From contig WFMW01000001.1 of NCBI GenBank assembly GCA_015488885.1, forward strand, positions 1 through 42,169: 42,169 nucleotides of DNA, in the 5' to 3' direction. Position numbers and translations under genes: made by a program. The notes below the pieces were generated by a model that saw nothing but the letters and a program-made list of their open reading frames with translations, was not told where the DNA came from and did no database searches. Below, one piece after another: positions 22,727 through 39,682 of the stretch. The stretch's first letter is position 1. Each line of letters opens with the position of its first letter. Source of the DNA: Gammaproteobacteria bacterium. GTDB taxonomy: Bacteria; Pseudomonadota; Gammaproteobacteria; SZUA-229.

Positions 22727-22769
22727 CGAAATTAAATTTATGTAAATGAACATGAAGGTAGCTTTTAGC

Positions 22770-23897
22770 ATGTCGATCAGAAAAAAATTAAAATATCCTC
22801 TCTTTTTATTATCTTTTCTTACTGTTTTTATACAAACAGACATTGTTCAGGCAGATAATATTGTTACTGTCGGTGTTGCGCCGCATGGTGGTTTTGTCAT
22901 TCTTGGGGGGAGTGTCATTCCGCTTAAGGAAGTAACCCTTGCTGCACAGATGCCGGGCAGGGTGGTATCGATTGCCGGTGAGGAAGGTGATAAATTCAAA
23001 GCCGGGGACGAGTTACTGAAAATTAACGACGATAAGCTTCTGGCCATGAGAAAAGCAGCCGAGGCAAAGCTTAATTCTGCACGTGATGCGGTACAGAATG
23101 CGCAGGTACAGTATAACCGTGAATTATGGAACCCACGCGTTTATAACCCACGCCCGATGTCGGGCATGGCGATGCCATCTATGTTTGATGGCTTTTTTAA
23201 TAAAGGGCCAATGTCAGATGTGAGTGGTGGCAATAAGAGTATAGAACGACATGCCGATCTGGTTGGTCAGGGAACGCAGGTTGCCACTGCGCGTTCACGT
23301 GTGCAGGAGGCGGAGTCGGGTATACATGAAATTGATGCTAAATTACGTGATACGGTTGCAGTAGCTCCCTTTGACGGAGTTATTATGAAAAAACTGGTTG
23401 AAATTGGCGATACCGTTCAACCTGGTCAGCATTTACTGGTTTATGCCTATACAAAATTTTTAAGAATTCGTGCAGAAGTCCCTGCGCGTTTAATGCCGGG
23501 GCTTAAAAAAGGCATGGTCGTGCCCGCCAGGCTGGACGTAGGTAATACACAGATTAATGTGCGTGTAGCACAAATTGCGCCGGTAGCGAATAAACAACAA
23601 CATACCGTTACTGTAAAATTTGATTTGCCTGAAGGTGTTCCCGGTGGGCCTGGTATGTATGCTGAAGTCATGATTCCTGACGTGAATTCACCAACACATG
23701 CTTTGCCGGTTATCCCTAAAGATGCCATCCAGAGAAATGGCAGCCTGCCATCGGTAGAAGTGCTGGATAAAGATAATAAACCGCAAATGCGCCTGATTCG
23801 AGTTGGTGAAGATATTGGCGATAATTCCGTGTCCGTTTTGTCAGGCTTAAAACCAGGTGAGCGCATTCTGATACATGGCCAGCAGAGTCATCATTAA
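22770..23897 (+). CDS. RND periplasmic adaptor (membrane fusion protein)
   Basis: Periplasmic adaptor of an RND efflux pump. The ATG at 22770 is chosen for GAAGGTAG 8 bases upstream and for the signal peptide that starts there (MSIRKKLKYPLFLLSFLTVF, cleavage after VQA); 375 residues. The lipoyl half-motifs are GRVVSIAGEEGDKFKAGDEL and VAPFDGVIMKKLVEIGDTVQ. Between them the usual helical hairpin is short and interrupted by a Met/Pro/Phe-rich stretch (RPMSGMAMPSMFDGFF, roughly residues 127-142). Beta-barrel and membrane-proximal domains follow. There is no lipobox cysteine. It is first in the cluster, 93 bases before its permease. No TolC-type outer membrane channel gene is present, so that partner must be elsewhere or lacking. 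Confidence 0.9.
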   Translation: MSIRKKLKYPLFLLSFLTVFIQTDIVQADNIVTVGVAPHGGFVILGGSVIPLKEVTLAAQMPGRVVSIAGEEGDKFKAGDELLKINDDKLLAMRKAAEAKLNSARDAVQNAQVQYNRELWNPRVYNPRPMSGMAMPSMFDGFFNKGPMSDVSGGNKSIERHADLVGQGTQVATARSRVQEAESGIHEIDAKLRDTVAVAPFDGVIMKKLVEIGDTVQPGQHLLVYAYTKFLRIRAEVPARLMPGLKKGMVVPARLDVGNTQINVRVAQIAPVANKQQHTVTVKFDLPEGVPGGPGMYAEVMIPDVNSPTHALPVIPKDAIQRNGSLPSVEVLDKDNKPQMRLIRVGEDIGDNSVSVLSGLKPGERILIHGQQSHH

Positions 23898-23990: not shown

Positions 23991-26900
23991 ATGACAGATA
24001 ATAAAGAAAATAAATCACCTGATAGTGCGGCAGAAGATAATCACATAGGCATGGCAGGGCGAATCACCCAGGCATTTATCAACTCACCCTTAACGCCAAT
24101 GTTGATTGTATTGTTTGTTCTGATGGGGGTAGCTGGTATTGCCTTTACACCACGTCAGGAAGACCCGCAAATTTCAGTCCCAATGGTGGATATTTTTGTG
24201 AAATATCCGGGGGCTTCAGCTAAACAGGTGGCCGCTCTGGTATTAAAGCCACTTGAACGCATTATGAGTGAAATGGATGGGATCAAGCATGTGTATGGTA
24301 TGGCGCAACGCGACCATGCGATGGTTACCGTGCAGTTTAGAGTGGGTCAGGATATGGAGCGCTCGCTGACCAAACTATACAGTAAACTTAATTCCAATAA
24401 AGATGTCATGCCGCCAGGGGTAACTGGCTATTTAGTGAAACCCAAGGCAGTGGAAGATGTACCGGGGCTGACGTTAACGCTCTGGTCAGACAAAGTGAAT
24501 GATGCTTCGTTGCGGCTGGTTGCGCTGGATGTTTTACAAAAATTAAGTGAAGTACCCAATACTAATCAGGGGTTTGTTGTCAGTGGTCGGCGTGAACAGC
24601 TTCGCGTTGAAGTCTTACCAGAGAAACTGGATGGTTATGGCCTCACATTACAGCAGATTGCCAATACCATCCGACAGGCAAATAGTGAGAAAAGTGTTGG
24701 TAATGTTGAAGCCTGGGACAAAAGCTTTAAGGTTTATACCGGCTCATTTCTGAAATCAAAACAGGATGTTGAAAGTATTGTTGTGGGTATTAAAGACGGT
24801 ATACCCGTTTATATGCGTGATGTGGCAAATGTTATTTATGGCCCATCGGAAGTTAACAGTTCGGTGAAGATGTATACCGGTGCAGGAAACAAATCTGGCA
24901 TGGTAGCAAATGGTGCCTCTGCTGTAACCATTGCTATTGCCAAGAAAAAAGGCAGCAATGTTGTTTCAGTGAATGAAGCGTTATTGAAAAAAATTAATGA
25001 ATTAAAAGGTCTGATTATACCTTCTAACGTACATGTTTATGTTTCACGCAACTACGGTGTAACGGCTAACGACAAGGTTAATGAATTAATATTTAAGTTA
25101 TTCTACGCCACCGGTCTGGTGACATTGCTGGTCTGGTTCGCACTCGGCTGGCGTCCGGCTTTTGTCGTGCTTGTGGTTATTCCCATAGTGATTTCATTTG
25201 CCATATTCAGTGCGATGATATTGGGCATGACGATTGACCGGGTGAGTTTGTTTGCACTGGTATTCGCTATTGGTATTCTGGTTGATGATGCTATTGTGGT
25301 GATAGAAAATGTGTATCGCCATTGGCGGCTACATAATAACAGCAGTGAAGATGTGACTATTCGTGCTGTTGATGAAGTGGGTAACCCGACTATTCTGGCA
25401 ACTTTCACCGTGATTGCTGCGTTATTACCAATGGGAGCGGTGCGCGGGATGATGGGGCCCTATATGGCGCCGATACCTGTATTAGGTTCAGTGGCAATGC
25501 TATTTTCGCTATTTGCTGCTTTTGCATTTACTCCCTGGCTGGCTAATAAACTCAAACCATCGATGGAGTCACTGGAAAAAGCAGAAATAAAGGAACAGCG
25601 GTTTAATACCCGAATGGGGAACTTTTTCAGGCGAACCCTTTGCCCACTGGCGGAGAATAAATCACTCGGGTATGGGTTTTTAATTTTATTGTTTGTGGTT
25701 TTCTTTGCCAGTTGTACCATGTTTTATACCACTGCAACCAGAGTGAAGTTATTACCACTGGACAATAAAGCAGAATTTGATGTGGTGATAAACTTCCCTG
25801 AAGGTACTTCTTTAATTGACACGGCTAACCTTACTGAAAAACTGGCAAACATAGCACGCAAAAATAAAAATGTGGTGGCTCTGCAAAGTTATGTCGGGAC
25901 AGCTTCTCCCTATAATTTTAATGGCCTGGTGCGACATTATTATTTACGTTCAAAACCCTGGCAGGCAGACATCCAGCTTGAATTGACAGATAAACATGAT
26001 CGTGAGTTAACCAGTCATCAAATAGCTGAGAAAATGCGTGACCTTATGACGCCTGTTGCAAAAGCCGCTGGCGCACGTATTCAGATTGTAGAAATGCCAC
26101 CTGGTCCGCCTGTATTGCAGTCTGTCGTGGCTGTCATTTACGGCCCGAATGATAAAACCCGGCGTCAGTTTGCCCATGATATGACTAAAATGTTTGAAAA
26201 AGCACCAAGTATTGTCGATGTGGATAACCTGATGCAGGCGCCCTATAGTATCTGGCGCTTTGAAGTTGACCGGGATAAGGCATTACGCGAAGGCATTAGT
26301 ATTGATGCCATTAATAAAACGCTTGCCATGGCAATGGGTGGCTTTGTTGTTGGCGATCTCAAGCGTGGCTCGGTGGTTGATCCTACTTATATTATTCTAC
26401 AGGTACCCATGTCTGCCCGTTCCGAGTTTTCACGCCTGGGCGTCATACCGGTAAGATCCAGTAACGGAAAACTGGTACCTTTGTCAGAACTGGGACGATT
26501 TGTAAAAGGTGTAGAACAGGATGTTATCTTCCAGAAAGATCTGCGTAATGTCGAATTTGTGACCGGGGATAGTGGAGGTAAACTCGCTGCACCTATCTAC
26601 GGCATGTTCCAGGTCGATGACATGTTAAACAATTACACTGCACCGGATGGCGTCAAGGTTCCTCATGGATTTCTTGGTGGTGGGTTTTTTGGTCCACCGG
26701 ATAACAGTAAAAAATCGGCCTTTGAATGGGGTGGTGAATGGACAGTTACCTATGAAACCTTCCGTGATATGGGCGGTGCATTTATGATCGCTATTATTCT
26801 GATTTACATGCTGGTCGTGGTTGAATTTAAAAACTTTATTTTTCCTTCCATTATTATGGCGCCGATACCCTTAACGCTGGTTGGCATTATTCCCGGGCAC

Positions 26901-27986
26901 TGGTTGTTTAATGCGGAATTTACGGCAACCTCTATGATCGGCTGGATTGCATTGTCAGGTATTATCGTGCGTAACTCCATTTTACTGGTTGATTTCACCA
27001 GGCATGAAGTGAAGCGCGGCATAGACGTGCGTGATGCAGTAATTAATGCCTGTCAGGCAAGAACGCGTCCCATTGTGATCACGGCGATGGCACTGGTTGG
27101 TGACTCAGCGGTTATTATCAGTGACCCCATTTTTCAGGGGATGGCCATTTCTCTATTATTTGGTGTGATTGTATCTACCGTGCTGACGTTGTTTATTATT
27201 CCACTGGGTTGTATTTCAGCGAAAAAAGCCTATCCCGCAGCCTGTATTGTTGGTGGTGATACCTGTCCTGTTGGAGATACTCCTGCGACAGAATGTTTGA
27301 TAACAGAGCCTGAATATAAAACGCCACTGTGGATGAGTATTTATAGCGCTATTCTTGCTGTCTTCAACTGGTTATTTATTATTGCGCAAATGCTGTTTAA
27401 TCTAGGACGGATGGTGTTTAGTATGTTTGGCTCAAATGATTCTACGCCGCCGCCTGCGTCACCGTCACCCGTTACACCACCTGCACCGCCATCACCATCA
27501 GGCGGGCAGCCGACTGCCGCACCTGCAGAAAAAACCTCAGCAGAAAAAACTTCGACAGCCGCCGAGCCTGAGAAGAAAAATCAGGCAGATCATATGAACA
27601 ATCCAGCATCCACTAAGGCTAGTAAAACAGCAGATAGTGAAGCAATAGATAGTAAAGCAACAACAATAGTGCAAAAAGCAGTAAGTAAACCAGCAGTGAC
27701 AGCAGAAAAAGCCACTGTAGACGAATCATTGCTCACCGCTGAAAAATCGGTGCCAATGAAAAAACCAGCAGATGAAAAGCAAGCGGTTGCAAAGAAAAAA
27801 CAGGTTAAAAAAACAGTTAAAAAAGCGGTAAAAAAGAAAACTGAGGTTAAACCTGAGGTTAAATCTGTTGCTGTAAAAAAATCAGCAATTAAGAAAGTGC
27901 CTGGCAAAAAAACAGCTTCTGGTCGTCGCGGTATACGCTTAAAAATAGATGATGGGGCAACAAAGGACGATGAAGACAGTAAATAG
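23991..27986 (+). CDS. RND efflux permease with a long C-terminal extension
   Basis: Proton-driven inner-membrane RND transporter. The core (about 1-1080) has the expected first helix, two large periplasmic loops and two helix bundles. The proton-relay acids are in GILVDDAIVVIENVYRHW, the pattern of drug/organic-exporting (HAE-like) RND proteins and unlike the heavy-metal type. At 1331 residues it is about 250 longer than usual. The extra part holds a cysteine-containing loop (CIVGGDTCPVGDTPATEC), a hydrophobic segment at about 1112-1147, a Pro/Ser-rich linker (STPPPASPSPVTPPAPPSPS) and a Lys/Ala/Val-rich tail (about 1240-1331; repeats such as KKTVKKAVKKK) like histone H1 or PAKKA-type sequences. 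Whether the tail is cytoplasmic is unproven, but its charge favours it. A 15-bp in-frame duplication (27525-27554) lies in the linker. Confidence 0.92.
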   Translation: MTDNKENKSPDSAAEDNHIGMAGRITQAFINSPLTPMLIVLFVLMGVAGIAFTPRQEDPQISVPMVDIFVKYPGASAKQVAALVLKPLERIMSEMDGIKHVYGMAQRDHAMVTVQFRVGQDMERSLTKLYSKLNSNKDVMPPGVTGYLVKPKAVEDVPGLTLTLWSDKVNDASLRLVALDVLQKLSEVPNTNQGFVVSGRREQLRVEVLPEKLDGYGLTLQQIANTIRQANSEKSVGNVEAWDKSFKVYTGSFLKSKQDVESIVVGIKDGIPVYMRDVANVIYGPSEVNSSVKMYTGAGNKSGMVANGASAVTIAIAKKKGSNVVSVNEALLKKINELKGLIIPSNVHVYVSRNYGVTANDKVNELIFKLFYATGLVTLLVWFALGWRPAFVVLVVIPIVISFAIFSAMILGMTIDRVSLFALVFAIGILVDDAIVVIENVYRHWRLHNNSSEDVTIRAVDEVGNPTILATFTVIAALLPMGAVRGMMGPYMAPIPVLGSVAMLFSLFAAFAFTPWLANKLKPSMESLEKAEIKEQRFNTRMGNFFRRTLCPLAENKSLGYGFLILLFVVFFASCTMFYTTATRVKLLPLDNKAEFDVVINFPEGTSLIDTANLTEKLANIARKNKNVVALQSYVGTASPYNFNGLVRHYYLRSKPWQADIQLELTDKHDRELTSHQIAEKMRDLMTPVAKAAGARIQIVEMPPGPPVLQSVVAVIYGPNDKTRRQFAHDMTKMFEKAPSIVDVDNLMQAPYSIWRFEVDRDKALREGISIDAINKTLAMAMGGFVVGDLKRGSVVDPTYIILQVPMSARSEFSRLGVIPVRSSNGKLVPLSELGRFVKGVEQDVIFQKDLRNVEFVTGDSGGKLAAPIYGMFQVDDMLNNYTAPDGVKVPHGFLGGGFFGPPDNSKKSAFEWGGEWTVTYETFRDMGGAFMIAIILIYMLVVVEFKNFIFPSIIMAPIPLTLVGIIPGHWLFNAEFTATSMIGWIALSGIIVRNSILLVDFTRHEVKRGIDVRDAVINACQARTRPIVITAMALVGDSAVIISDPIFQGMAISLLFGVIVSTVLTLFIIPLGCISAKKAYPAACIVGGDTCPVGDTPATECLITEPEYKTPLWMSIYSAILAVFNWLFIIAQMLFNLGRMVFSMFGSNDSTPPPASPSPVTPPAPPSPSGGQPTAAPAEKTSAEKTSTAAEPEKKNQADHMNNPASTKASKTADSEAIDSKATTIVQKAVSKPAVTAEKATVDESLLTAEKSVPMKKPADEKQAVAKKKQVKKTVKKAVKKKTEVKPEVKSVAVKKSAIKKVPGKKTASGRRGIRLKIDDGATKDDEDSK

Positions 27987-28087
27987 ACCTTGGCACGATA
28001 TATTCACGTATAAAATTCTGGCTCGTTTTTTTGCGCCTGCTTATCGTACAAAACTGTCATCGTGCAAAGCTATCAAAGAGTAAACCT

Positions 28088-28951
28088 ATGGTGGTTAACG
28101 TTAACAATCTGAAATATCTTTGTGCTATGGCTGGCATAGCATTTTCTACGGCTATTGCCGCACATAATAGCAACCCAGGCGGTTCTTCATGGCAAGCTTC
28201 AGTGGGGTCTGGATCATCTGTAACTCATGCAGAGAGAAAACCCGTCACATCATCAACTACCGGGTCAGGGAGTAATGCATCTGATCACAGGCTGACATCA
28301 ATGCGGTATCCACAATGGCCAGCTAAAAATCTATTTACACGAGAAATAATTCCGCCGCCACCACCAGGGCCATATATGTCCACAGCATTAAACAATGGAC
28401 AGATAAAAGAGCCGCATATAAATGGTATGCATAATACCGTTCATTCTCCTGATAAAACGGCCACGGCGGCTAAATTTAATCCAGATACCCCCTGGCCAGA
28501 CGAGAAAACCATGACCAGCCGCTGGCGACCTGATAATGGCTATCATTATATTACATCAGGTAAGGCAGTATCGACACCTGCACGGGTATTCAGGCCGGTG
28601 TCTGGCTATCGTCGATCACTGAATATGCCTGTTACGCCCGGGAGACAGGGGGGTTATCAATTTTCACCTCCGCAGCAGGGTTCTTATGCAAGGAATATGA
28701 ATATATCTGGTAAACATTTATACCAACAGCGTACAATACCAACATCAAATATTGCGCGACGCTCTGGAAGGCGCAATTTAAATAAAAATGTTTATCGATC
28801 AGAACCGCCTCGGGCTTATCAGCCACACTATCGTGCCGATAATCCGGTTACGCAAACACGTGCTCCATCAGCATACAGAATGCCTCCGCAATACAGGCAA
28901 GGCTCTTTTGTGTCAGGACAGGTAGTAGATCGTGATTCAAGACACCCTTAA
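28088..28951 (+). CDS. exported Pro/Tyr/Arg-rich protein, unknown function
   Basis: I do not recognise this protein. From the ATG at 28088 (AAAGAG about 8 bases upstream) it has 287 residues with a signal peptide (MVVNVNNLKYLCAMAGIAFS, cleavage near AIA-AHN). A TTG 57 bases upstream is in frame but would spoil the signal peptide. The mature part has no hydrophobic segment and is of low complexity: Ser/Gly-rich at first, then REIIPPPPPGPYMS near residue 93, then Arg/Tyr/Pro/Gln-rich to the end (PPQYRQGSF). It is basic and probably disordered, with no cysteine in the mature part. It lies 101 bases after the permease in the same direction and 96 bases before a second protein of similar character, so it may be an exported structural or surface component of the same system. 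Confidence 0.7.
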   Translation: MVVNVNNLKYLCAMAGIAFSTAIAAHNSNPGGSSWQASVGSGSSVTHAERKPVTSSTTGSGSNASDHRLTSMRYPQWPAKNLFTREIIPPPPPGPYMSTALNNGQIKEPHINGMHNTVHSPDKTATAAKFNPDTPWPDEKTMTSRWRPDNGYHYITSGKAVSTPARVFRPVSGYRRSLNMPVTPGRQGGYQFSPPQQGSYARNMNISGKHLYQQRTIPTSNIARRSGRRNLNKNVYRSEPPRAYQPHYRADNPVTQTRAPSAYRMPPQYRQGSFVSGQVVDRDSRHP

Positions 28952-29047: not shown

Positions 29048-29758
29048 ATGAGTATGAGTCGTTTATTTATATTTTGTGGCATGATCATATCAACTGTAAC
29101 AGCGGTTGCTGCAGATCGTATTAGTGGGAATACCTTTAATTTAATGGATATGCCAGGTTTGCATCCTGTGGTTATGAAGATCGGTCAGTATAACCCATGG
29201 ACATTACCGCCAGTACAGCGCCCCACCTCCTTCCCTCATTATTATAATGCCTGGCAACAAAATGGCCAGTCTACAACAAATCCACAGTCAACAGCAGCAA
29301 ATCCACAGTCAACAGCAGCTTATCCGCGGTATCGGGCGCAACCCGAATTTGTTACCCCGGAGGTATTAAATAATATAAAAAAGCAACAGGTATATACACA
29401 GCAGAACCATTCACCCTGGCAGTATAATGATTACCGCTATAGAGGACGTTCCTATGGTACCAGTTGGTCGGCTAATACCCGCCATCGGTCATCAGATCCA
29501 TGGTTATATAATCCAGATAAATATAAAAATCCGTCATCCAGTTCAGGTTTACTGACAACGCCTGAAAGACTTGATTCGGAGTCATTATTATTTGGGGGGC
29601 AATCATTACCGGCAGTCCCCGATGCAGCGATTGGTGGCGTGCCTCCGATGAATGTTTTCGAACCCTTACCCTCTGAACTATCAGAAAAAAACTATCGTTC
29701 AGGAGGTAGTTATTATCCATTTAGATATGGCCCTTTTGGCGATTTTGTTCCACAATAA
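29048..29758 (+). CDS. second exported Tyr/Pro/Ser-rich protein, unknown function
   Basis: A 236-residue protein I do not recognise, with a signal peptide (MSMSRLFIFCGMIISTVTAV, cleavage after AVA-ADR). The mature protein is rich in Tyr, Pro, Ser, Asn and Trp and looks disordered: NPWTLPPVQRPTSFPHYY, a duplicated NPQSTAA unit (encoded by a perfect 21-bp tandem repeat), repeated YN/YR motifs, and a C-terminus YYPFRYGPFGDFVPQ. It has no cysteine after the signal peptide. Its composition resembles the preceding protein without clear alignment. Both lie between the efflux genes and the LolA-like gene, so a periplasmic or surface role in the same assembly is the simplest guess. Confidence 0.7.
   Translation: MSMSRLFIFCGMIISTVTAVAADRISGNTFNLMDMPGLHPVVMKIGQYNPWTLPPVQRPTSFPHYYNAWQQNGQSTTNPQSTAANPQSTAAYPRYRAQPEFVTPEVLNNIKKQQVYTQQNHSPWQYNDYRYRGRSYGTSWSANTRHRSSDPWLYNPDKYKNPSSSSGLLTTPERLDSESLLFGGQSLPAVPDAAIGGVPPMNVFEPLPSELSEKNYRSGGSYYPFRYGPFGDFVPQ
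29278..29319. repeat. perfect 21-bp in-frame tandem duplication
   Basis: Two identical adjacent copies of a 21-base unit (29278-29298 and 29299-29319) encode a duplicated NPQSTAA heptapeptide in the exported Tyr/Pro-rich protein. Perfect identity suggests a recent event. Confidence 0.95.
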
Positions 29759-29761
29759 AAC

Positions 29762-30562
29762 ATGATCAGAACTTTGGAAATAAACTATTTTGTGAAAAAG
29801 CTCCTTTTTTTATTACTGTTTGTATTTTCTTCTTTTTTTATTACACCAGTATTTGCAATATCTTTTACTGCAGATGCAGTACAGACTCGTGGTAAACAGA
29901 TTAGCCATGCAAAGATAGTCTGGCAGAATAATCGAGTGCGGTTTGATTATGTAAAAGACGGTGTGTCAATGACACAGATATTTGATGCTGCAAAAAATCG
30001 GGTAATCTGGCTGGATAATAAAAATAAACAGTATGTTGAAACAGCGATGCCTGATATTAAAAAGATACAGGCAATGATTAAGCCAGAGAAAACGTATAAT
30101 CCGTGTGTGCAATTTAAGCATGCCAGTTGTATTCATTTAAAAGAAGCAAAAATTAATAATCGTAATACCGATAACTGGTTAATCACTATGCCAACAAAAC
30201 ATGGCGATTATCATATATTTCAGTGGATAGACAAAAAATACAAAGTTGTTTTACGCCAGGAAAACTCTGATGGTTCAGCCTTAAATGCTACGTTGACAGA
30301 TAAGCTAATACTGGATGGGCGCAAAGTCCATAAACTGGATATGTATGCTTATTCTACAAGCGGGAAGGAAACACATGGTGTGCAATGGTATGACAATAAA
30401 CTCAATATTGTGATAAAACAACAGTATGGTAATAATTATATCGATGAATTGAAAAATATTAAACCGGGTAAAATAAAACAGGCAATGTTTGTGATACCTG
30501 AAACGTATAAACGTTATAAAAAAACCATGCTAACCGCTCAGAAGAATGATATTAATCAATGA
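29762..30562 (+). CDS. LolA-like/DUF4412-like periplasmic protein
   Basis: A 266-residue exported protein with a signal peptide (hydrophobic LLFLLLFVFSSFFITPVFA, residues about 14-32). The mature part has the beta-rich pattern of LolA/LolB-like or DUF4412 proteins: FTADAVQTRGKQISHAKIVWQ, VRFDYVKDG, TQIFDAAKNRVIWLDNKNKQY. These are one-sided half-barrels that often bind lipid or lipoprotein acyl chains. Two cysteines (CVQFKHASC) could form a disulfide. It starts 3 bases after the previous stop, so it is tightly linked. A role in carrying a hydrophobic ligand between the membranes is inferred from fold only. Confidence 0.6.
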   Translation: MIRTLEINYFVKKLLFLLLFVFSSFFITPVFAISFTADAVQTRGKQISHAKIVWQNNRVRFDYVKDGVSMTQIFDAAKNRVIWLDNKNKQYVETAMPDIKKIQAMIKPEKTYNPCVQFKHASCIHLKEAKINNRNTDNWLITMPTKHGDYHIFQWIDKKYKVVLRQENSDGSALNATLTDKLILDGRKVHKLDMYAYSTSGKETHGVQWYDNKLNIVIKQQYGNNYIDELKNIKPGKIKQAMFVIPETYKRYKKTMLTAQKNDINQ

Positions 30563-30642: not shown

Positions 30643-31278
30643 ATGTTGACAGTAGTGGGAAATCTAAAAGGTGGTACGGGAAAAAGTACCGTGGCATTTA
30701 ATCTTGCAGTATGGCTGGCTTATGATAATAATGATGTCAGGGCATTCGACCTTGATCCACAATGCACCTTGCTGGATGTTTGTGAGGTAAGGCAGGAAGA
30801 TGGTTTTGAGCCGATTTTTGACGTGTCGGCAGATCTTGACGAGCTGGTAAAACTGGCAGCTGACAAAAACTGTCAACAACCGGTTATTGTTGATATGAGT
30901 GCAAGCAATATGCCAGCAATGGAAAAAGCCATTTCTATCGCGGATCGAATTCTGATTCCCGTTCAGCCTAGTCAGGCAGATATCTGGTCAACTCAGCGGT
31001 TTCTGAAAATCATTACCAGAAATCTCGATAAAAACAGAAACACTGAAGTGCTGGGTTTTATCAATCGTGCTGATACCCATCGAGGTGTTCGCGAAACTGA
31101 GGAAGCTGAACAGGCATTGCAGATGCTACAGGGAATTAAAGAACTGGATATTCGTCTGTATCAACGTACGGCTTATCGGCGTTCTTTTAGTGAAGGACTG
31201 GGTGTATTTGAACTCGACCCTATGGGTAAAGCTTCAAAAGAAATGAAAAAGCTGGCAACGATGTTAGGAGAGCGCTGA
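30643..31278 (+). CDS. orphan ParA/MinD-type positioning ATPase
   Basis: A 211-residue deviant Walker ATPase. The Walker A motif is KGGTGKST (9-16) with the signature lysine K9, the A' motif is FDLDPQ (35-40), and the B-like motif is VIVDMSAS near residue 84. It has no N-terminal helix-turn-helix and no C-terminal MinD amphipathic helix, so it belongs with the small orphan ParAs that position cargo such as chemoreceptors, carboxysomes, conjugation or secretion machines by moving on the nucleoid. The usual small partner (ParB/McdB-like) is absent. Candidate activators are the basic tails of the permease and of the coiled-coil membrane protein in the same cluster. A ribosome binding site (AGGCAGG) precedes the ATG. 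Confidence 0.9.
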   Translation: MLTVVGNLKGGTGKSTVAFNLAVWLAYDNNDVRAFDLDPQCTLLDVCEVRQEDGFEPIFDVSADLDELVKLAADKNCQQPVIVDMSASNMPAMEKAISIADRILIPVQPSQADIWSTQRFLKIITRNLDKNRNTEVLGFINRADTHRGVRETEEAEQALQMLQGIKELDIRLYQRTAYRRSFSEGLGVFELDPMGKASKEMKKLATMLGER

Positions 31279-31368
31279 ATAAGTCATCAATCAGCAATCG
31301 GTTTAATCCAGACCTGGTCTGAGCTTGCTGAATAACCCTGATATGAGATAGTGTAAACGAGGTTGCTT

Positions 31369-32235
31369 ATGAGATTTTTTCGCTGGTTATTAAGTAATAT
31401 AATCCTGATAATTGTAATAATTACTTTAATATATACCTATGTTTACTGGGGTAATCTGACGGGTGCAGAAACACCGGGTGGTAAGGTAATTGCTTATTTG
31501 TCTACACAGTCACCTGTAGTACATCAATTTATTGGCGGTATCAACAACAAGAAACCGCAGGAGGACCGCTCAACGGCGAATGCTTCACCCCCTCTCATTC
31601 AACCACCTGTGGCCATTCGTTATCGTCACAATAATCAGCAATCGCTACAGCATTCTACAGGAAAAGCAAATGCCCATTATACTGCTGAAGCCAACGAGTC
31701 AACCTTAAGCCCTGATGTTAATAAAACTGAAAAAACAGAGAAACACCATCTGTTCAGGCAAAGTACATCAATCCAGCCGGTGCATACAACACCGGTTATT
31801 AAACAGGTGCCACATAATCCTGCTCAGCTTCAGCAGGCGAAGAAGGCAAACAAATTTGTTTCAGCTGCTGTTGAACAGGAACTGGAGAATGCCGGTGCAG
31901 CTGGGGATGTTGCTGCACTTACGCCTGATGCGACCAGAGCAGTGTGGATAAAAGCACGAAAATCTTTTTATCAGCATGAATATGCGCAATCAGAAAAACG
32001 TTATCGGCGTGTCATAGCCATGACAAAAGATAATTTTGATGCCTATGGCGAACTGGGTAATGTTTATTTTAATCAGGGTAAAAATGATAAGGCGGCAGAT
32101 GCATATATGGCTGCAGCAACTATTTTAATAAAACAGGGTAAGGTCGAACGTGCACGTAGCTTAGTTGGATTGATGCATTACCTGAATCAGGACAAAGCCA
32201 GACAATTAAAGCAAAAACTTGAGGCAGCTCAATAA
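31369..32235 (+). CDS. membrane-anchored TPR protein
   Basis: A 288-residue protein with an N-terminal membrane helix (about 8-26, LLSNIILIIVIITLIYTYVY) that is probably an uncleaved anchor. A Gln/Thr/His-rich linker covers about 55-165. A C-terminal pair of TPR-like helix repeats at about 190-285 includes ARKSFYQHEYAQSEKRYRRV and DAYGELGNVYFNQGKNDKAA. With a short basic cytoplasmic start, the TPR part would be in the periplasm, where it could organise protein contacts. The ATG at 31369 is preferred because GAGG stands 7 bases upstream; a TTG two codons earlier is in frame. It is followed after 23 bases by the DUF302 gene. Confidence 0.75.
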   Translation: MRFFRWLLSNIILIIVIITLIYTYVYWGNLTGAETPGGKVIAYLSTQSPVVHQFIGGINNKKPQEDRSTANASPPLIQPPVAIRYRHNNQQSLQHSTGKANAHYTAEANESTLSPDVNKTEKTEKHHLFRQSTSIQPVHTTPVIKQVPHNPAQLQQAKKANKFVSAAVEQELENAGAAGDVAALTPDATRAVWIKARKSFYQHEYAQSEKRYRRVIAMTKDNFDAYGELGNVYFNQGKNDKAADAYMAAATILIKQGKVERARSLVGLMHYLNQDKARQLKQKLEAAQ

Positions 32236-32850: not shown

Positions 32851-34038
32851 ATGAGCAAAAAAGATACAGCCGACAAAGATATGTCTGGTAAAAATGTGTC
32901 CAGTAAAGACATATCCAGTAAGGACAGAGCTAAGTCGGCAAAGTCTGAATCAGTAACTACTGATATTAAACAGACATCTGCTAGCATTAATAAAAGTGCG
33001 GTAAACAGTAGTGCCGCAGATGTTAACGCCGACAATGCATCCAGTGCATCGCTTAAACAGCCAGAGGCAAAAAAAACACCGCTAAAAAAATCAACAGATA
33101 AAAAACCTGCTGTGAAAAAACCAGCCGTGAAGAAAACGGCTGAAGAAATACAAAAAGCTAATAATGCTATTAAATCAAAACAGGCGATTGAAGAACTAAA
33201 ACAACGTGCTGCAGAAGCAAAGAAACGTGCACAGGAAAAAATTCTGGAAAAAGCCTATGTCAGTGATAAGCCGATTGATCCATTAGAGCGCCTGGCAAAT
33301 ACCTTTCATCAAAGTGCACGACGTTGGGAAATGGTGGTTTATCCATCGATGTTTGCCTTTGTTTTACTCGCCGGTTACGGTTTTTTCCTTATCTACCGGC
33401 TGACTCATGATATCTCAACCCTGTCACATTCTGTTACCAGAATGGCGGTAATTGTATCGGAAGCCATGCCAAGAATGACCAAGGATATGGGCGTGATGAC
33501 AGGCAGTATTGATAATATGACAGATAATGTTACCGGTATGTCAGGTAATATAAGAAGCATGACAACAGAAATAACCTCAATGTCTGGACAAATGAATACC
33601 TTGACCCCACTGAGTCAGAATATTTCCAATATGACTGGAACGATGAATGAAATGAATCGTTCTGTTTATGGCATGCAACGGGATATGGGAGGTATGAATC
33701 GTACCATTTCCAGCGGGCCATTTGGTATGATGAATGATGTGATGCCATTTCATTCTAATAGAAATGTTACACCGCCACTACCGCCACCAACTTATCGACA
33801 ACCATGGGAAGTGCGTCGTCCTTATGCCGCAGCACCCGTTAAAGCACCCGCAGTGAGAAAACCAGCGTTAGCTAAACAGATAAAAGCGAATAAACTGGAT
33901 CCTCCCGCTACAGTCGGGAAAAAAGTGATGCAACCAATAGAGCCATTACCACAACACAATAATACGATACAAAAGCCTGCTTTGAATGGTTCCGGTCTGG
34001 AAAATCATCAGGTTGTTGCAACGGGAAGGAATGAGTAG
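32851..34038 (+). CDS. membrane protein with basic cytoplasmic part and Met-cored periplasmic coiled coil
   Basis: A 395-residue protein of no family I know. Residues 1-95 are Lys/Ser/Ala-rich and disordered, with KKPAVKKPAVKK near 84-95. Residues 96-132 form a charged helix. One membrane helix lies at about 162-182. Residues 202-282 form a heptad-repeat coiled coil whose core positions are largely methionine: M209, M216, M223, M230, M237 and M244 lie exactly seven apart, with alternate core residues M213, I220, V227, I234, I241 and M248, then a three-residue phase shift near 251-254 and a second run to M282. A Pro-rich part (PPLPPPTYRQPWEVRRPY, about 308-325) and a Lys/Pro-rich tail follow. 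With the basic start in the cytoplasm, the coiled coil would reach about 12 nm into the periplasm. Confidence 0.8.
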   Translation: MSKKDTADKDMSGKNVSSKDISSKDRAKSAKSESVTTDIKQTSASINKSAVNSSAADVNADNASSASLKQPEAKKTPLKKSTDKKPAVKKPAVKKTAEEIQKANNAIKSKQAIEELKQRAAEAKKRAQEKILEKAYVSDKPIDPLERLANTFHQSARRWEMVVYPSMFAFVLLAGYGFFLIYRLTHDISTLSHSVTRMAVIVSEAMPRMTKDMGVMTGSIDNMTDNVTGMSGNIRSMTTEITSMSGQMNTLTPLSQNISNMTGTMNEMNRSVYGMQRDMGGMNRTISSGPFGMMNDVMPFHSNRNVTPPLPPPTYRQPWEVRRPYAAAPVKAPAVRKPALAKQIKANKLDPPATVGKKVMQPIEPLPQHNNTIQKPALNGSGLENHQVVATGRNE

Positions 34039-34040
34039 AA

Positions 34041-35549
34041 ATGTTGAATCGCCCTGAAAAATCTATTCGAGATCGTCTTGAAAAGCTTGAATCACACCTG
34101 AAAAACGAGAATCCCTTATTACTTGATGCGGTGGTCCGTTTTAAAAAACTTGATAGCGTGGCGTATAAAACAGGGTTGCTTAATACCGATAAATCCTATG
34201 CTACTGGCATACCGTGGTGGCCTTTAGTGTCGATATTAGGGACGTTTTCAGCAGGAAAATCCTCTTTTATTAACCATTTTCTGGGGGATAAATTACAGTT
34301 AACCGGTAATCAGGCTGTGGATGATAAATTTACCGTGATTACCTACAGCGGCAGTGACGAAAATCGTGTCTTACCCGGTATTGCATTAAATTCTGACCCA
34401 CGGTTTCCTTTTTACCAGATGAGTGATGAGATAGATAAGGTTGCCAGTGGTGAAGGTCGCCGTATTGATGCTTATTTACAGATGAAAACCTCAAATTCAG
34501 AAAAATTGAGTGGAAAAATATTTATTGATTCTCCCGGTTTTGATGCAGACGAACAGCGTAATGCTATTTTACGTTTAACCGATCACATTGTTGATTTATC
34601 TGATCTGGTACTGGTGTTTTTTGATGCACGTCACCCTGAACCCGGTGCCATGCAGCATACCCTGGATCACCTTGTTGGTAACACCATAAAACGCAGTGAT
34701 TCAGAAAAATTTCTCTATATTTTAAATCAGATTGATACCGCCGCGCAGGAAGATAACCCGGAAGCGGTGGTTGCCGCCTGGCAGCGTGCACTGGCTGCCG
34801 AGGGTTTAACTGCCGGACGTTTCTATACCATTTATAATAAAGAGGTGGCCGTGCCTATTCAGGATGAATCAGTCAGAACCCGGTTTGAGGCGAAATGTGA
34901 TCATGATATGGCTGCCATCGTAGAGCGTATTCATCAGGTAGAGGTTGAACGCTCGTATCGTATCATCGGCGCGCTTGATAATATTGCTAATGATATAGAG
35001 TTTGAGATTGTGCCAGTGATAAAACAGGCAATGAATAAATGGATGCGGCTGGTGTTGACCATGGATGCGATTGCATTTGGTTTATTGTTAACACTGATGT
35101 TTGTGCTTACGCAGTGGATGAATCCGTGGCAGTTATTTCATTTCGACTTTACGAATAATAATATTATTTCCATTATTAAACTGGTGCTTATCGTCGTTGT
35201 TGTGCTAGCCGTGCATTTTTCCGTGCGTCGATTTGCTGCAACAAGAATTGCTGCAAAACTGGCTGTTAAGCATGCAGCGGGTAATGTGCGCGCAGCTTTC
35301 CTTCGTAATACCCATTTTTTACGTAGTATCTTTCGCCCGATTCCAGCCGGTTGGTCGATGCGTACCAAACGTGTCTTGCAGACGGTAATTGCCGATTCCA
35401 GCGAGTTTATTCAGACTATGAACGACCGTTATACTCGACCGTCCGGTATGCTTCCCGATACAGCACTCGATATACCTGAGTCAGATATTGAACCCGTTTC
35501 AGTTAGTCAGGAGCCTGAGCAGAAAGATGTTTCTGAGGTTAAAAGGTGA
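34041..35549 (+). CDS. dynamin-like GTPase with two C-terminal membrane helices
   Basis: A 502-residue dynamin-superfamily GTPase. G1 is GTFSAGKSS (67-75), with a possible G2 threonine near T98 (DKFTVI). G3 is DSPG (163-166) and G4 is NQID (229-232). WWPLVSILGTFSAGKSSFIN resembles EHD and bacterial dynamin-like proteins. After a short helical region come two hydrophobic helices (about 337-358 and 375-396) and a cytoplasmic tail of about 100 residues with a basic first half. This is an integral membrane protein with the GTPase in the cytoplasm. Such proteins bend, fuse or stabilise membranes. GGAAGGAATGAG lies just upstream of the ATG, overlapping the previous stop. It is the last gene of the cluster, ending 3 bases from convergent psd. 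Confidence 0.9.
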   Translation: MLNRPEKSIRDRLEKLESHLKNENPLLLDAVVRFKKLDSVAYKTGLLNTDKSYATGIPWWPLVSILGTFSAGKSSFINHFLGDKLQLTGNQAVDDKFTVITYSGSDENRVLPGIALNSDPRFPFYQMSDEIDKVASGEGRRIDAYLQMKTSNSEKLSGKIFIDSPGFDADEQRNAILRLTDHIVDLSDLVLVFFDARHPEPGAMQHTLDHLVGNTIKRSDSEKFLYILNQIDTAAQEDNPEAVVAAWQRALAAEGLTAGRFYTIYNKEVAVPIQDESVRTRFEAKCDHDMAAIVERIHQVEVERSYRIIGALDNIANDIEFEIVPVIKQAMNKWMRLVLTMDAIAFGLLLTLMFVLTQWMNPWQLFHFDFTNNNIISIIKLVLIVVVVLAVHFSVRRFAATRIAAKLAVKHAAGNVRAAFLRNTHFLRSIFRPIPAGWSMRTKRVLQTVIADSSEFIQTMNDRYTRPSGMLPDTALDIPESDIEPVSVSQEPEQKDVSEVKR

Positions 35550-36427: not shown

Positions 36428-36588
36428 AGTTACCAACCATAAACAGCATCGTTATGAGGGTGATTCCGGTGCATGAGATTTTGGTCACAAAACAGGGGCG
36501 TTTGGTTATTCCAAATAACGCTATCTTGTGACCAGAAGATTATGTGCCGGAAGCAGTCGCAGTAGATGCCTGTTTGTGGTCGGTAACT
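36428..36588. repeat. 161-bp imperfect inverted repeat (MITE-like)
   Basis: The arms 36428-36490 and 36526-36588 (63 bases each) match in inverted orientation at 44 of 63 positions by hand alignment, with perfect blocks at the ends (AGTTACC/GGTAACT) and next to the centre (TGGTCACAA/TTGTGACCA). The 35-base centre contains a smaller hairpin, TTTGG-TTATT-CCAAA. It fills nearly the whole gap between psd and pcuC. The shape suggests a decayed miniature palindromic element; a large attenuator or terminator between the two genes is the alternative. A 70-codon minus-strand frame over it is an artefact of the palindrome. Confidence 0.75.
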
Positions 36589-36631
36589 ATTCAGCAATGT
36601 TTCAACAATAGTATCCAGGGTGAGTACAGGG

Positions 36632-37099
36632 TTAATCGGCATAGTCAGGTTTTTTTACCATGGCTGGCACCGTGACAGTCTGGCCATTGCCCAGCGTAAA
36701 CGTAAAATTGACTTTATCACCGGCATGCAGGGTTTTCACCGGATTAAACAGCATCATATGGTAACTGCCGGGTTTCAGGCTCAGTGAGCCGTGTGCCGGT
36801 ATGCTGAGAACAGGCAAATGGTGCATTTCAGCCATGCCATTTACCACCACACTTTGATGAAAACCAATACTGCTGAACAATTTTGAATGGCAGGATTTAA
36901 TTTCAATATTCTGACTGGAGGGGTTTTTAATGGTCATATAAGCGACCATTACCTGACTGACGGGTGGCGCTTCAGCAACCCATACATGTGAGAACTGGAG
37001 CGGCTGCGGTTGTGATGTTTCTGCAAGGCAACCTGTACTAGACAAACCGGCACTAAACAAAAACAGGAGAATCTGAAAAAAACGCATATTAATAATCAT
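36632..37099 (-). CDS. pcuC: periplasmic copper chaperone PCu(A)C
   Basis: Periplasmic Cu(I) chaperone that delivers copper to the CuA site of cytochrome c oxidase or to related assembly factors. From the ATG at 37099 (AGG 9 bases upstream) it has 155 residues with a signal peptide ending near CLA-ETS. The metal site follows the family rule H-X10-M-X21-H-X-M exactly: H81, M92, H114 and M116 (end of motif PGSYHMMLF). An ATG ten codons upstream is in frame but has no such ribosome binding site. It is divergent from prmB and stands alone. A copper-type operator may lie in the gap to prmB. Confidence 0.92.
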   Translation of the reverse strand: MIINMRFFQILLFLFSAGLSSTGCLAETSQPQPLQFSHVWVAEAPPVSQVMVAYMTIKNPSSQNIEIKSCHSKLFSSIGFHQSVVVNGMAEMHHLPVLSIPAHGSLSLKPGSYHMMLFNPVKTLHAGDKVNFTFTLGNGQTVTVPAMVKKPDYAD

Positions 37100-37237
37100 G
37101 GTTGTAAACCTGTGGAAATTTTCTGGCAAGATAGATACTGGGCGATAATTATACAGGGATTATAAGCGGTCTGCCTGAACGATGAAAGTTTATAAGGATA
37201 CTCTGAACAAGTCTGAAATAATGGAGCTTAATTAGAG

Positions 37238-37252
37238 TATACCCCGGGTATA
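37238..37252. promoter_or_regulatory. GC-centred palindrome, possible CsoR-type operator
   Basis: TATACCCCGGGTATA is a perfect 7+1+7 palindrome in the gap between pcuC and prmB, 139 bases from the pcuC start and 56 from prmB. AT-flanked C/G tracts of the form ATACCC...GGGTAT are typical of CsoR/RcnR-family metal-sensor operators, and pcuC encodes a copper protein. The centre is shorter than in most described sites, so this is a suggestion only. Confidence 0.35.
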
Positions 37253-37307
37253 TCTACATTTCTATATCTGGATTAGGGTAGAATAGAGGACTTTAAGTGA
37301 ACCATAA

Positions 37308-38255
37308 GTGATGATTGATAAACGGGAAATTGCCAGCGATCTGTCCAGTCTGCGTGATTTAATCCGCTGGGGCAGTAGCCAGTTTAATGCTGCCGACTTA
37401 AGTTTCACCCAGGGGATGCCGGATGCGCTGGATGAGGCCGTGTATTTATGCCTGCACGCCTTGCATCTGCCACCTGATTTTAGCAGTGATTATTTTGACT
37501 GTACCCTGACCATGGAAGAGCGACTCAAGGTTCTCGATCTGTTTCAGCAACGTATCGAAAAGCGAATTCCTGCGGCTTATATCACCCACGAAGCCTGGTT
37601 TACCGGCTTGAGTTTCTATGTCAATGAAACGGTATTGATTCCGCGTTCACCGCTGGCCGAATTAATTGAACAACAGTTTACGCCGTGGGTGGCAGCTGAA
37701 AATGTTACCCACATTCTGGATTTATGCACGGGTAGCGCCTGTATTGCCATTGCCTGCGCCTATGCCTTTGAACAGGCACAGATAACGGCCAGTGATATTT
37801 CGGCACCGGCACTGGCTGTGGCAGCTATCAATCGTCAAAACCATGGTCTGGAACAGCGCCTGACACTGCTACAGTCTGATTTATTTGACTCGCTGGGAGA
37901 TGAAAAATATGACATTATTGTCAGCAACCCGCCTTATGTGAGCAGACATGAAATGACCCGCCTGGCCGCCGAGTTTGCCTATGAGCCAGCCCAGGCGCTG
38001 GTTGCCGGTGAACAGGGTATGGATATTGTACTGCCCATGCTGGTCGAGGCAGGCAAGCATCTGCGAGCCAACGGTATTCTGGTGGTTGAAGTCGGTTATT
38101 CCAGACCGCAACTGGAACAGTGCTTGCCTGATGTGCCTTTTGTCTGGCTGGATTTTGCCCGTGGTGGTGAAGGCGTGTTTGTATTAACGGCAGAGCAAAT
38201 GGCTGACCATCAGGATGAATTTGAACGCGCAACGGCCTTGCTGAATAAAGAATAA
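37308..38255 (+). CDS. prmB: ribosomal protein L3 N5-glutamine methyltransferase PrmB
   Basis: SAM-dependent methyltransferase that modifies a glutamine of ribosomal protein L3 during 50S assembly. The 315-residue protein has the PrmB N-terminal helical domain (LRDLIRWGSSQFNAADL) and the Rossmann domain with ILDLCTGSACIAIACA for SAM binding. NPPY at 207-210 recognises the target glutamine. Length and N-terminus distinguish it from PrmC/HemK, which modifies release factors. The start is GTG at 37308 or the ATG one codon later; the ribosome binding site does not decide it. Followed by aroC as in pseudomonads. Confidence 0.95.
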   Translation: MMIDKREIASDLSSLRDLIRWGSSQFNAADLSFTQGMPDALDEAVYLCLHALHLPPDFSSDYFDCTLTMEERLKVLDLFQQRIEKRIPAAYITHEAWFTGLSFYVNETVLIPRSPLAELIEQQFTPWVAAENVTHILDLCTGSACIAIACAYAFEQAQITASDISAPALAVAAINRQNHGLEQRLTLLQSDLFDSLGDEKYDIIVSNPPYVSRHEMTRLAAEFAYEPAQALVAGEQGMDIVLPMLVEAGKHLRANGILVVEVGYSRPQLEQCLPDVPFVWLDFARGGEGVFVLTAEQMADHQDEFERATALLNKE

Positions 38256-38296
38256 GTTTTTTCTCATCATTTTAGCTGTTATTTTTTATGGCATGG

Positions 38297-38328
38297 TTTT
38301 AACTATTGATAATTTTAACTATTGATAA
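38297..38328. repeat. perfect 16-bp tandem duplication before aroC
   Basis: TTTTAACTATTGATAA occurs twice in perfect tandem (38297-38312, 38313-38328) in the gap between prmB and aroC, 31 bases before the aroC ATG. Confidence 0.95.
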
Positions 38329-38359
38329 AATGGCTTAACTGATTAATTCAGGATTATAT

Positions 38360-39457
38360 ATGTCTGGAAATACCATAGGAAAACTGTTTAGCGTTACCAC
38401 TGCCGGTGAGTCACACGGCCCCGGTCTGATAGGTATTGTCGATGGCTGTCCCCCGGGGTTGCTGCTTGATGAAACCGATTTACAGCATGACCTGGATCGG
38501 CGTAAACCGGGGAGTTCCCGGCACACTACCCAACGGCGTGAAGATGACCGGGTAAAAATATTTTCCGGTGTCTTTGAAGGCAAAACCACCGGTACCAGTA
38601 TTGGTCTGATTATCGAAAATACCGATCAGCGCTCGAAAGATTATGGCAATATCAAAGACCGTTTTCGCCCCGGCCATGCGGATTACACCTACCAGCAAAA
38701 ATACGGGTTTCGTGATTACCGGGGTGGCGGGCGTTCCTCGGCACGCGAAACTGCGATGCGTGTGGCGGCCGGTGGCATAGCAAAAAAATATCTTAAAGAC
38801 CGCTATGGCATCGAAATTTTTGGTTATATGTCGCAGCTGGGGCCGATTGTCATGCCCATGTTGAACAGGGATGCGATTAACCGCAACGCCTTTTTCTGTG
38901 CTGATGTCAGTTTACTCCCCGAACTGGAAGCCTATATGGATGCCCTGCGTAAAGCCGGTAATTCGGTGGGTGGGAAAATTACCGTGGTAGCCGAAGGTGT
39001 GCCACCGGGTTTGGGCGAGCCGGTATTTGACCGGCTGGATGCTGATCTTGCCCACGCCATGATGGGGATTAACGCCGCCAAAGGCGTAGAAATCGGTGAT
39101 GGCTTTGCCTGCGTTGAAGCCAGAGGTACCGAGTTTCGCGATGAAATGACCCCGCAGGGATTCAAAACCAACCATGCCGGCGGCGTGTTAGGCGGTATTT
39201 CATCCGGCCAGCCAATCGTGGTACATACCGCGTTTAAACCCACCTCAAGTATCCGACTCTCCGGTGATACAGTGAATGTGGCAGGTGAACCGGTTGATGT
39301 AGTCACACTGGGGCGGCACGATCCCTGTGTAGCAATTCGTGCAACCCCTATCTGTGAAGCCATGCTGGCCATTGTACTGCTGGATCAACTGTTACGTTTC
39401 CGGGGGCAGTGCGCCGATGTGGTGTCATCAACACCGGTTATTCCTGCGCAGGAATAA
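38360..39457 (+). CDS. aroC: chorismate synthase
   Basis: Last step of the shikimate pathway: EPSP to chorismate, using reduced FMN. The 365-residue protein begins [20 protein letters not shown] and contains the family signatures [54 protein letters not shown] and [10 protein letters not shown]. Length is normal (E. coli 361). CAGGA stands 9 bases upstream of the ATG. It lies between prmB and an MFS transporter, an order I recall from Pseudomonas (PA1678-PA1682 region). Confidence 0.98.
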
Positions 39458-39505
39458 GCCGAAGCAGAATATTTCTGCTGCATGATTTTTTTAATAGGAT
39501 ATTTC

Positions 39506-39577
39506 TGATAAAACGGCTTTTGATAAAACAGCTTTTGATAAACCACTTTTGATAAATATTCCTGATAAAGCCTTTCC
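39506..39577. repeat. five degenerate tandem units after aroC
   Basis: Five adjacent units beginning TGATAAA and mostly ending CTTT or TTCC: 39506-39520, 39521-39535, 39536-39549, 39550-39562 and 39563-39577, with 13-15 bases each. Just after them AAGTATGGTTA occurs twice (39603-39613, 39620-39630). The rest of the 225-base gap between aroC and the MFS gene shows nothing I recognise. Confidence 0.85.
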
Positions 39578-39682
39578 GAATAATGCCGGGGATACTCTGA
39601 AAAAGTATGGTTAGAAAATAAGTATGGTTAAAATCAGGCTTGCACAGAGTATCTCTGGATGTGGTGATGAATAAATATTGCT

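Follow-up and report, generated by a model that had tools for sequence, protein, structure and literature searches.

Does the ParA-type ATPase encoded beside an RND pump in a gammaproteobacterial gene cluster act on that pump, and through which part of it? ParA/MinD family ATPases of known role mostly position cargo, and many members of the family are called orphans, meaning that their partner was not identified (PMC10241942). The window, which is the whole 42,169-nucleotide stretch of DNA analyzed here, is contig C1 of a 2.63-Mb genome that also contains a SoxB gene. The closest matches of its ParA were in gammaproteobacterial MAGs, one of which is labelled Thiotrichaceae. The cluster runs from an NtrC-type regulator through a membrane fusion protein, an RND permease, two small Pro-rich proteins and a LolA/RseB-fold protein to ParA, which is followed by a TPR protein, a DUF302 protein, a coiled-coil membrane protein and a dynamin-like GTPase. 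The features are as follows.

First gene of the cluster, minus strand: NtrC-type regulator
22746..23897, plus strand: membrane fusion protein of the pump (TIGR01730, 158.5 bits)
23991-27986, plus strand: RND (HAE-1 type) permease, whole open reading frame, 1331 amino acids
23991..27212, plus strand: RND permease core, up to and including TM12 (PF00873; Foldseek)
27327..27440, plus strand: extra 38-residue hydrophobic helix after TM12, residues 1113-1150 (AlphaFold, hydropathy)
27429..27983, plus strand: disordered, putatively cytoplasmic tail, residues 1147-1331 (pLDDT below 50)
27924..27944, plus strand: C-terminal motif RRGIRLK, proposed ParA-binding peptide (conservation, co-loss with ParA)
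28031-28951 and 29048-29758: two Pro-rich, likely exported proteins that matched neither Pfam nor NCBIfam
29762..30562, plus strand: exported LolA/RseB-fold protein (AlphaFold mean pLDDT 87.5; Foldseek)
30643..31278, plus strand: ParA-type ATPase, 211 amino acids (deviant Walker A, KGGTGKS)
31363..32235, plus strand: TPR protein with an N-terminal TM segment
32259..32849, plus strand: DUF302 protein with an N-terminal hydrophobic segment (PF03625, 42.7 bits)
32851..34038, plus strand: membrane coiled-coil protein with a single TM segment; basic N-terminus, residues 1-143
34041..35549, plus strand: dynamin-like GTPase with two TM segments (PF00350, 50.5 bits)

The two Pro-rich proteins between the permease and ParA are weakly conserved within the window's clade. 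In one assembly, G016, the ParA-TPR-DUF302 part occurs twice (G016:C59 and G016:C214; L094 and L100), with a ParA identity of 74-75%.

ParA and the RND permease

Residues K9, G10, G11, G13, K14 and S15 of the ParA Walker A motif were invariant in 21 sequences and conform to KGGxGK[ST]. Conserved basic residues (RTxxRR) near the C-terminus are only suggestive of nucleoid DNA binding by this ParA. Its nearest solved structures are those of TP228 ParF/ParA.

The permease matched PF00873 (ACR_tran) with 459 bits (E 3e-137), and its C-terminal half matched TM7-12 of MdtB, OqxB and AcrB in Foldseek; AcrD was also matched. The PF00873 domain, the TM7-12 fold and an adjoining membrane fusion protein are common to this permease and the HAE-1 RND permeases MdtB, OqxB and AcrB, whereas about 250 additional C-terminal residues ending in RRGIRLK distinguish it from them. 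TM12 ends at residues 1070-1074 (27198-27212) of the 1331-residue protein. Close paralogs of the permease and an ordinary HAE-1 permease, all of the same genome, terminate shortly after TM12, which the window's permease does not. The tail is an added feature, compatible with RND membership, and permeases encoded beside ParA generally extend about 150-300 residues past TM12.

Beyond TM12, a linker leads to the 38-residue helix, whose internal blocks have a pLDDT of 90-94 in the AlphaFold model, and then to a tail that is predicted to be disordered, with pLDDT below 50 from residue 1147 to the end. The tail consists of a Pro/Ser spacer and then a Lys-rich stretch near the end, and the last 80 residues of the permease have a net charge of +18. 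A first-pass annotation had reported about 250 extra residues ending in Lys/Ala/Val repeats, with the tail at 27430-27986. The TM12 end and the PF00873 match bear out this length, the composition is real at those positions, and the interval coincides with the disordered part. Two untailed paralogs in other genomes, L191 (G066/G334:C255) and L247 (G108:C71), instead end in a helix-hairpin-like ISGIGPKIEALLNEAGI domain, a C-terminal extension of another type.

Conservation within the tail

RGI[RQK][LT][KN] was present close to the end of all 71 selected full-length tails, with RRGIRLK its commonest form, and the general form of the tail end in relatives is [R]RGI[R/Q/K]LK. The third residue of the motif was Gln in 20 of 72 distinct tails. 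The motif positions scored 3.1-4.3 bits, compared with mostly 1.2-1.7 bits in the spacer, values that are conditional on the pattern that anchored the tails. A strict back-translated form of the motif gave one match per genome, always at the permease end, in six of nine genomes searched. It was absent from the other three, whose permeases carry the variants RRGIRLN, RRGIRIK and KRGIQLK, and the reversed-motif control gave no match in this search. Thus, a near-invariant short basic peptide, which the first-pass annotation did not mention, lies at 27924-27944 in the window, at a terminus predicted to be disordered.

The composition of the spacer behaved differently, and the share of Lys and Arg in the 54 residues before the motif ranged from 0 to 43% across tails. 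A histone-like (H1-type) tail was therefore rejected as a conserved feature, and the earlier proposal that the Lys/Ala/Val composition is the active feature did not hold among relatives. The suggested search of orthologous permeases did recover the tail and its end motif repeatedly; what was not kept was the basic character of the spacer. Repeats resembling AEKAA break assemblies (L063/L064, L205, L261 and L265), and ortholog tails are often split between contigs.

These data also bear on a tail that would bind nucleoid DNA directly through its lysines and so anchor the pump independently of ParA. The tail is indeed Lys-rich in the window and in many relatives, and direct nucleoid contact is possible where it is. 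However, several tails with little or no Lys or Arg before the motif keep both the motif and ParA, and loss of ParA is accompanied by loss of the tail, so we regard such a tether as very unlikely. Because the Lys-rich composition is not conserved, nucleoid contact, which had been suggested as a possibility for both tails, cannot be the conserved function of the permease tail.

Co-occurrence of the motif and ParA

The sample comprised 369 genomes of the class, most of which are MAGs in which repetitive tails break assemblies. The ParA subfamily was found in 65 genomes and the permease subfamily in 73. The 65 ParA-bearing genomes divide into 57 with the canonical motif, one (G247) with RRGIRAD, three in which the tail is cut off (G195, G333 and G412) and four without a permease of the subfamily in the assembly (G088, G158, G227 and G271). 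In G195 the permease first read was a paralog, and the better-matching copy runs to the end of its contig. The four assemblies without the permease may reflect another client of ParA or missing sequence.

Of the 58 genomes that bear ParA and whose tail end can be read, 57 thus have the canonical motif. Fourteen genomes have the permease without this ParA; the tail of one (G204) is cut off, and 12 of the 13 readable ones lack the motif. The exception, G133, has the motif on a contig that ends before the usual place of ParA. Fisher's test of motif against ParA gave p of about 1e-11, a value computed as if related genomes were independent. Five independent pairs that differ in ParA were identified on a tree of 60 permeases, and in all five the tail differed in the same direction (sign test p 0.06, the minimum attainable with five pairs).

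In several genomes without ParA the remainder of the cluster is retained, but the tail or its motif is gone. For example, four genomes that are 99-100% complete (G339, G342, G125 and G244) keep the genes for the membrane fusion protein, permease, TPR protein, coiled-coil protein and dynamin-like GTPase; the permease motif is missing, the locus contains no ParA, and the ParA homologs encoded elsewhere are all distant. In G182, also without this ParA, the long tail is kept and its motif has decayed, so that the end reads RKSVRIK. In six genomes (G058-G063) ParA is encoded at a distant locus, and the permease keeps the motif or a close variant. Outside the class, all ten readable tails of ParA-bearing genomes end in RRGIRL[KR], and most of these clusters lack dynamin-like and TPR genes within the stretch read.

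Several apparent counterexamples were explained. L125 has a scaffold gap between TM12 and the tail, G102 has a frame break with an intact motif downstream, and in G224, G228, G119, G282, G308 and G326 the motif was found on the ParA contig. In G102 (L316, G102:C6) the frame breaks just before the tail, leaving the motif in another frame, while the sibling G234 is intact; the break is either a sequencing error or real. Clusters with ParA in which both the permease tail and the coiled-coil N-terminus are missing were looked for, and none was seen among the readable clusters.

The earlier proposal that the permease tail is linked to ParA is upheld in that the terminal motif is present or absent in step with ParA. 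These comparisons support a functional tie between the two, and the simplest reading of the sequences is that the motif and ParA serve each other. The motif could instead bind the coiled-coil protein, the dynamin-like GTPase or the TPR protein and follow ParA only through the shared cluster, given that all these genes are usually encoded together. This is quite unlikely, since the ParA-less clusters keep the coiled-coil, TPR and dynamin-like genes yet lose the motif, and in most of the clusters shown from outside the class, which have the motif and ParA, the stretch read contains neither a dynamin-like nor a TPR gene.

Side of the membrane

With their 12 TM helices, RND permeases have two cytoplasmic termini. 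The extra helix after TM12 is, by hydropathy, hydrophobic enough to span the membrane in 29 of the 36 orthologs tested, and for this reason hydropathy does not settle the side on which the tail lies. In the window's permease this helix may be in-plane, re-entrant or spanning. Nine tails with the motif, among them the tail of Thiomicrorhabdus sp. Milos-T2, whose motif reads KRGIQLK, do not have the helix and should therefore lie in the cytoplasm. If the motif does a single job, it should be on the same side of the membrane in all orthologs. The topology check proposed earlier therefore permits a spanning helix, and the nine orthologs without it favor the cytoplasm; the permease tail is most likely cytoplasmic, a placement that is well supported.

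TolA and TonB have Lys/Ala-rich or Lys/Pro-rich periplasmic parts. Together with the hydrophobicity of the helix in the 29 orthologs, this likeness in Lys-rich type is what would speak for a periplasmic, TonB/TolA-like tail unrelated to ParA. With nine motif-bearing orthologs that have no such helix, and with the tail lost together with a cytoplasmic ATPase, we consider this extremely unlikely.

N-terminus of the coiled-coil protein

The coiled-coil protein at 32851 does have KKPAVKKPAVKK before its single TM segment, as had been described. Its likeness to the permease tail proved to be no more than local composition explains. The Smith-Waterman score of the two regions was 92. Full shuffles gave 70 +/- 9, with 30 of 2000 reaching 92, and shuffles within 20-residue blocks gave 81 +/- 9, with 249 of 2000 reaching it. 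The RGI motif was not found in the coiled-coil N-terminus. In relatives this region may be a short basic stretch or may be neutral or acidic, and this holds for the ParA-bearing genomes G129 and G261 as well. As a lineage-specific feature that is absent in many ParA-bearing clusters, the basic N-terminus was rejected as the ParA partner. Thus, of the idea that both tails recruit ParA, the part concerning the permease tail survives as a probable reading, and the part concerning the coiled-coil N-terminus, which is not conserved, does not.

Comparison with known ParA partners

Stimulation of ParA/MinD ATPases comes from short partner peptides that are positively charged and usually N-terminal (PMC7993993, PMC10241942, PMC12204374). 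The motif of ParB mixes aliphatic with basic residues and docks at the interface of the ParA dimer (PMC12462528), and ParG, the partner of ParF, uses a disordered, flexible N-terminal region (PMC5393062). RRGIRLK is proposed as the ParA peptide for several reasons. First, known partners use short basic peptides. Secondly, the other candidate, the coiled-coil N-terminus, is not conserved. Third, this ParA is closest to ParF, whose partner uses a disordered region.

The cluster shares a deviant-Walker-A ATPase with the ParA-ParB, TP228 ParF-ParG, MinD-MinE, PomZ-PomX, McdA-McdB and PpfA-TlpT systems. It is also like the known partner systems in that a disordered terminus carries a short basic/aliphatic peptide and in having one partner per ATPase. 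However, the known peptides are N-terminal, whereas the permease motif is C-terminal and is placed on an integral membrane transporter without a separate adaptor protein. Nothing in the permease motif corresponds strictly to the central basic residue of the ParB motif, since the third position is Gln in the 20 of 72 tails noted above. A known partner peptide of a different ParA subfamily has basic residues, then [RK]-G-[LI] and a further Leu, comparable to KKKGRRGIQLKGDL in relatives; this apparent likeness is short and concerns the opposite end of the protein.

Proposed mechanism

We consider it likely, from the sequence comparisons, that the tail makes the RND pump a cargo of the clustered ParA and that RRGIRLK is the cargo peptide. 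A flexible cytoplasmic spacer of variable composition past TM12 would carry the motif, which would bind the ATP-bound, nucleoid-associated ParA dimer and so tether the pump. The motif would probably also stimulate the ParA ATPase, like the N-terminal peptides of ParB, ParG, MinE, PomX and McdB. As RND permeases are trimeric, three copies of the peptide would be displayed on every pump, and a ParA gradient would distribute pump assemblies at intervals along the nucleoid. Direct binding, ATPase activation and pump positioning are what we infer from the tail, its predicted disorder, the conserved motif and its repeated joint absence with ParA.

The same co-occurrence data would fit a ParA that binds the tail to gate or switch the assembly or activity of the pump and not its position, as positioning is itself an inference. 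ParA/MinD ATPases of known role mostly position cargo (PMC10241942), and we regard a regulatory role as unlikely. Positioning by way of the motif is the reading we retain.

Occurrence in sulfur oxidizers and significance

SoxB was found in 60 of the 65 ParA-bearing genomes and in 95 of the 304 others. In three genomes of one family (G103:C30, G235:C36 and G412:C132) a few kb separate SoxB from the permease, for example at 42570-44294 with the permease at 36455-39673 in G103:C30. This association hints at sulfur oxidizers and does not thereby identify the pump substrate. The LolA/RseB-fold protein matched LolA3, RseB and LolA-superfamily proteins in Foldseek (E about 1e-6 to 1e-5), and it hints at a lipophilic substrate. 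Halothiobacillus neapolitanus, likewise a sulfur oxidizer, has several ParA-type ATPases, each with its own cargo, and no transporter cargo is described among them in the available portion of that study (PMC10241942).

The open-access literature searched contained no relevant paper on ParA with RND pumps or on such sulfur-oxidizer clusters, nor this cargo class and adaptor arrangement. On balance we lean towards a ParA that positions or partitions an inner-membrane RND pump through a C-terminal peptide on the pump itself, in sulfur-oxidizing Gammaproteobacteria and in genomes outside the class. Comparative genomics singles out a seven-residue motif as the candidate ParA partner site, on an unexpected carrier, a multi-pass efflux-type transporter. 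If this is true, membrane pumps would join the cargos that are spaced by ParA, and the motif would be a directly testable peptide.
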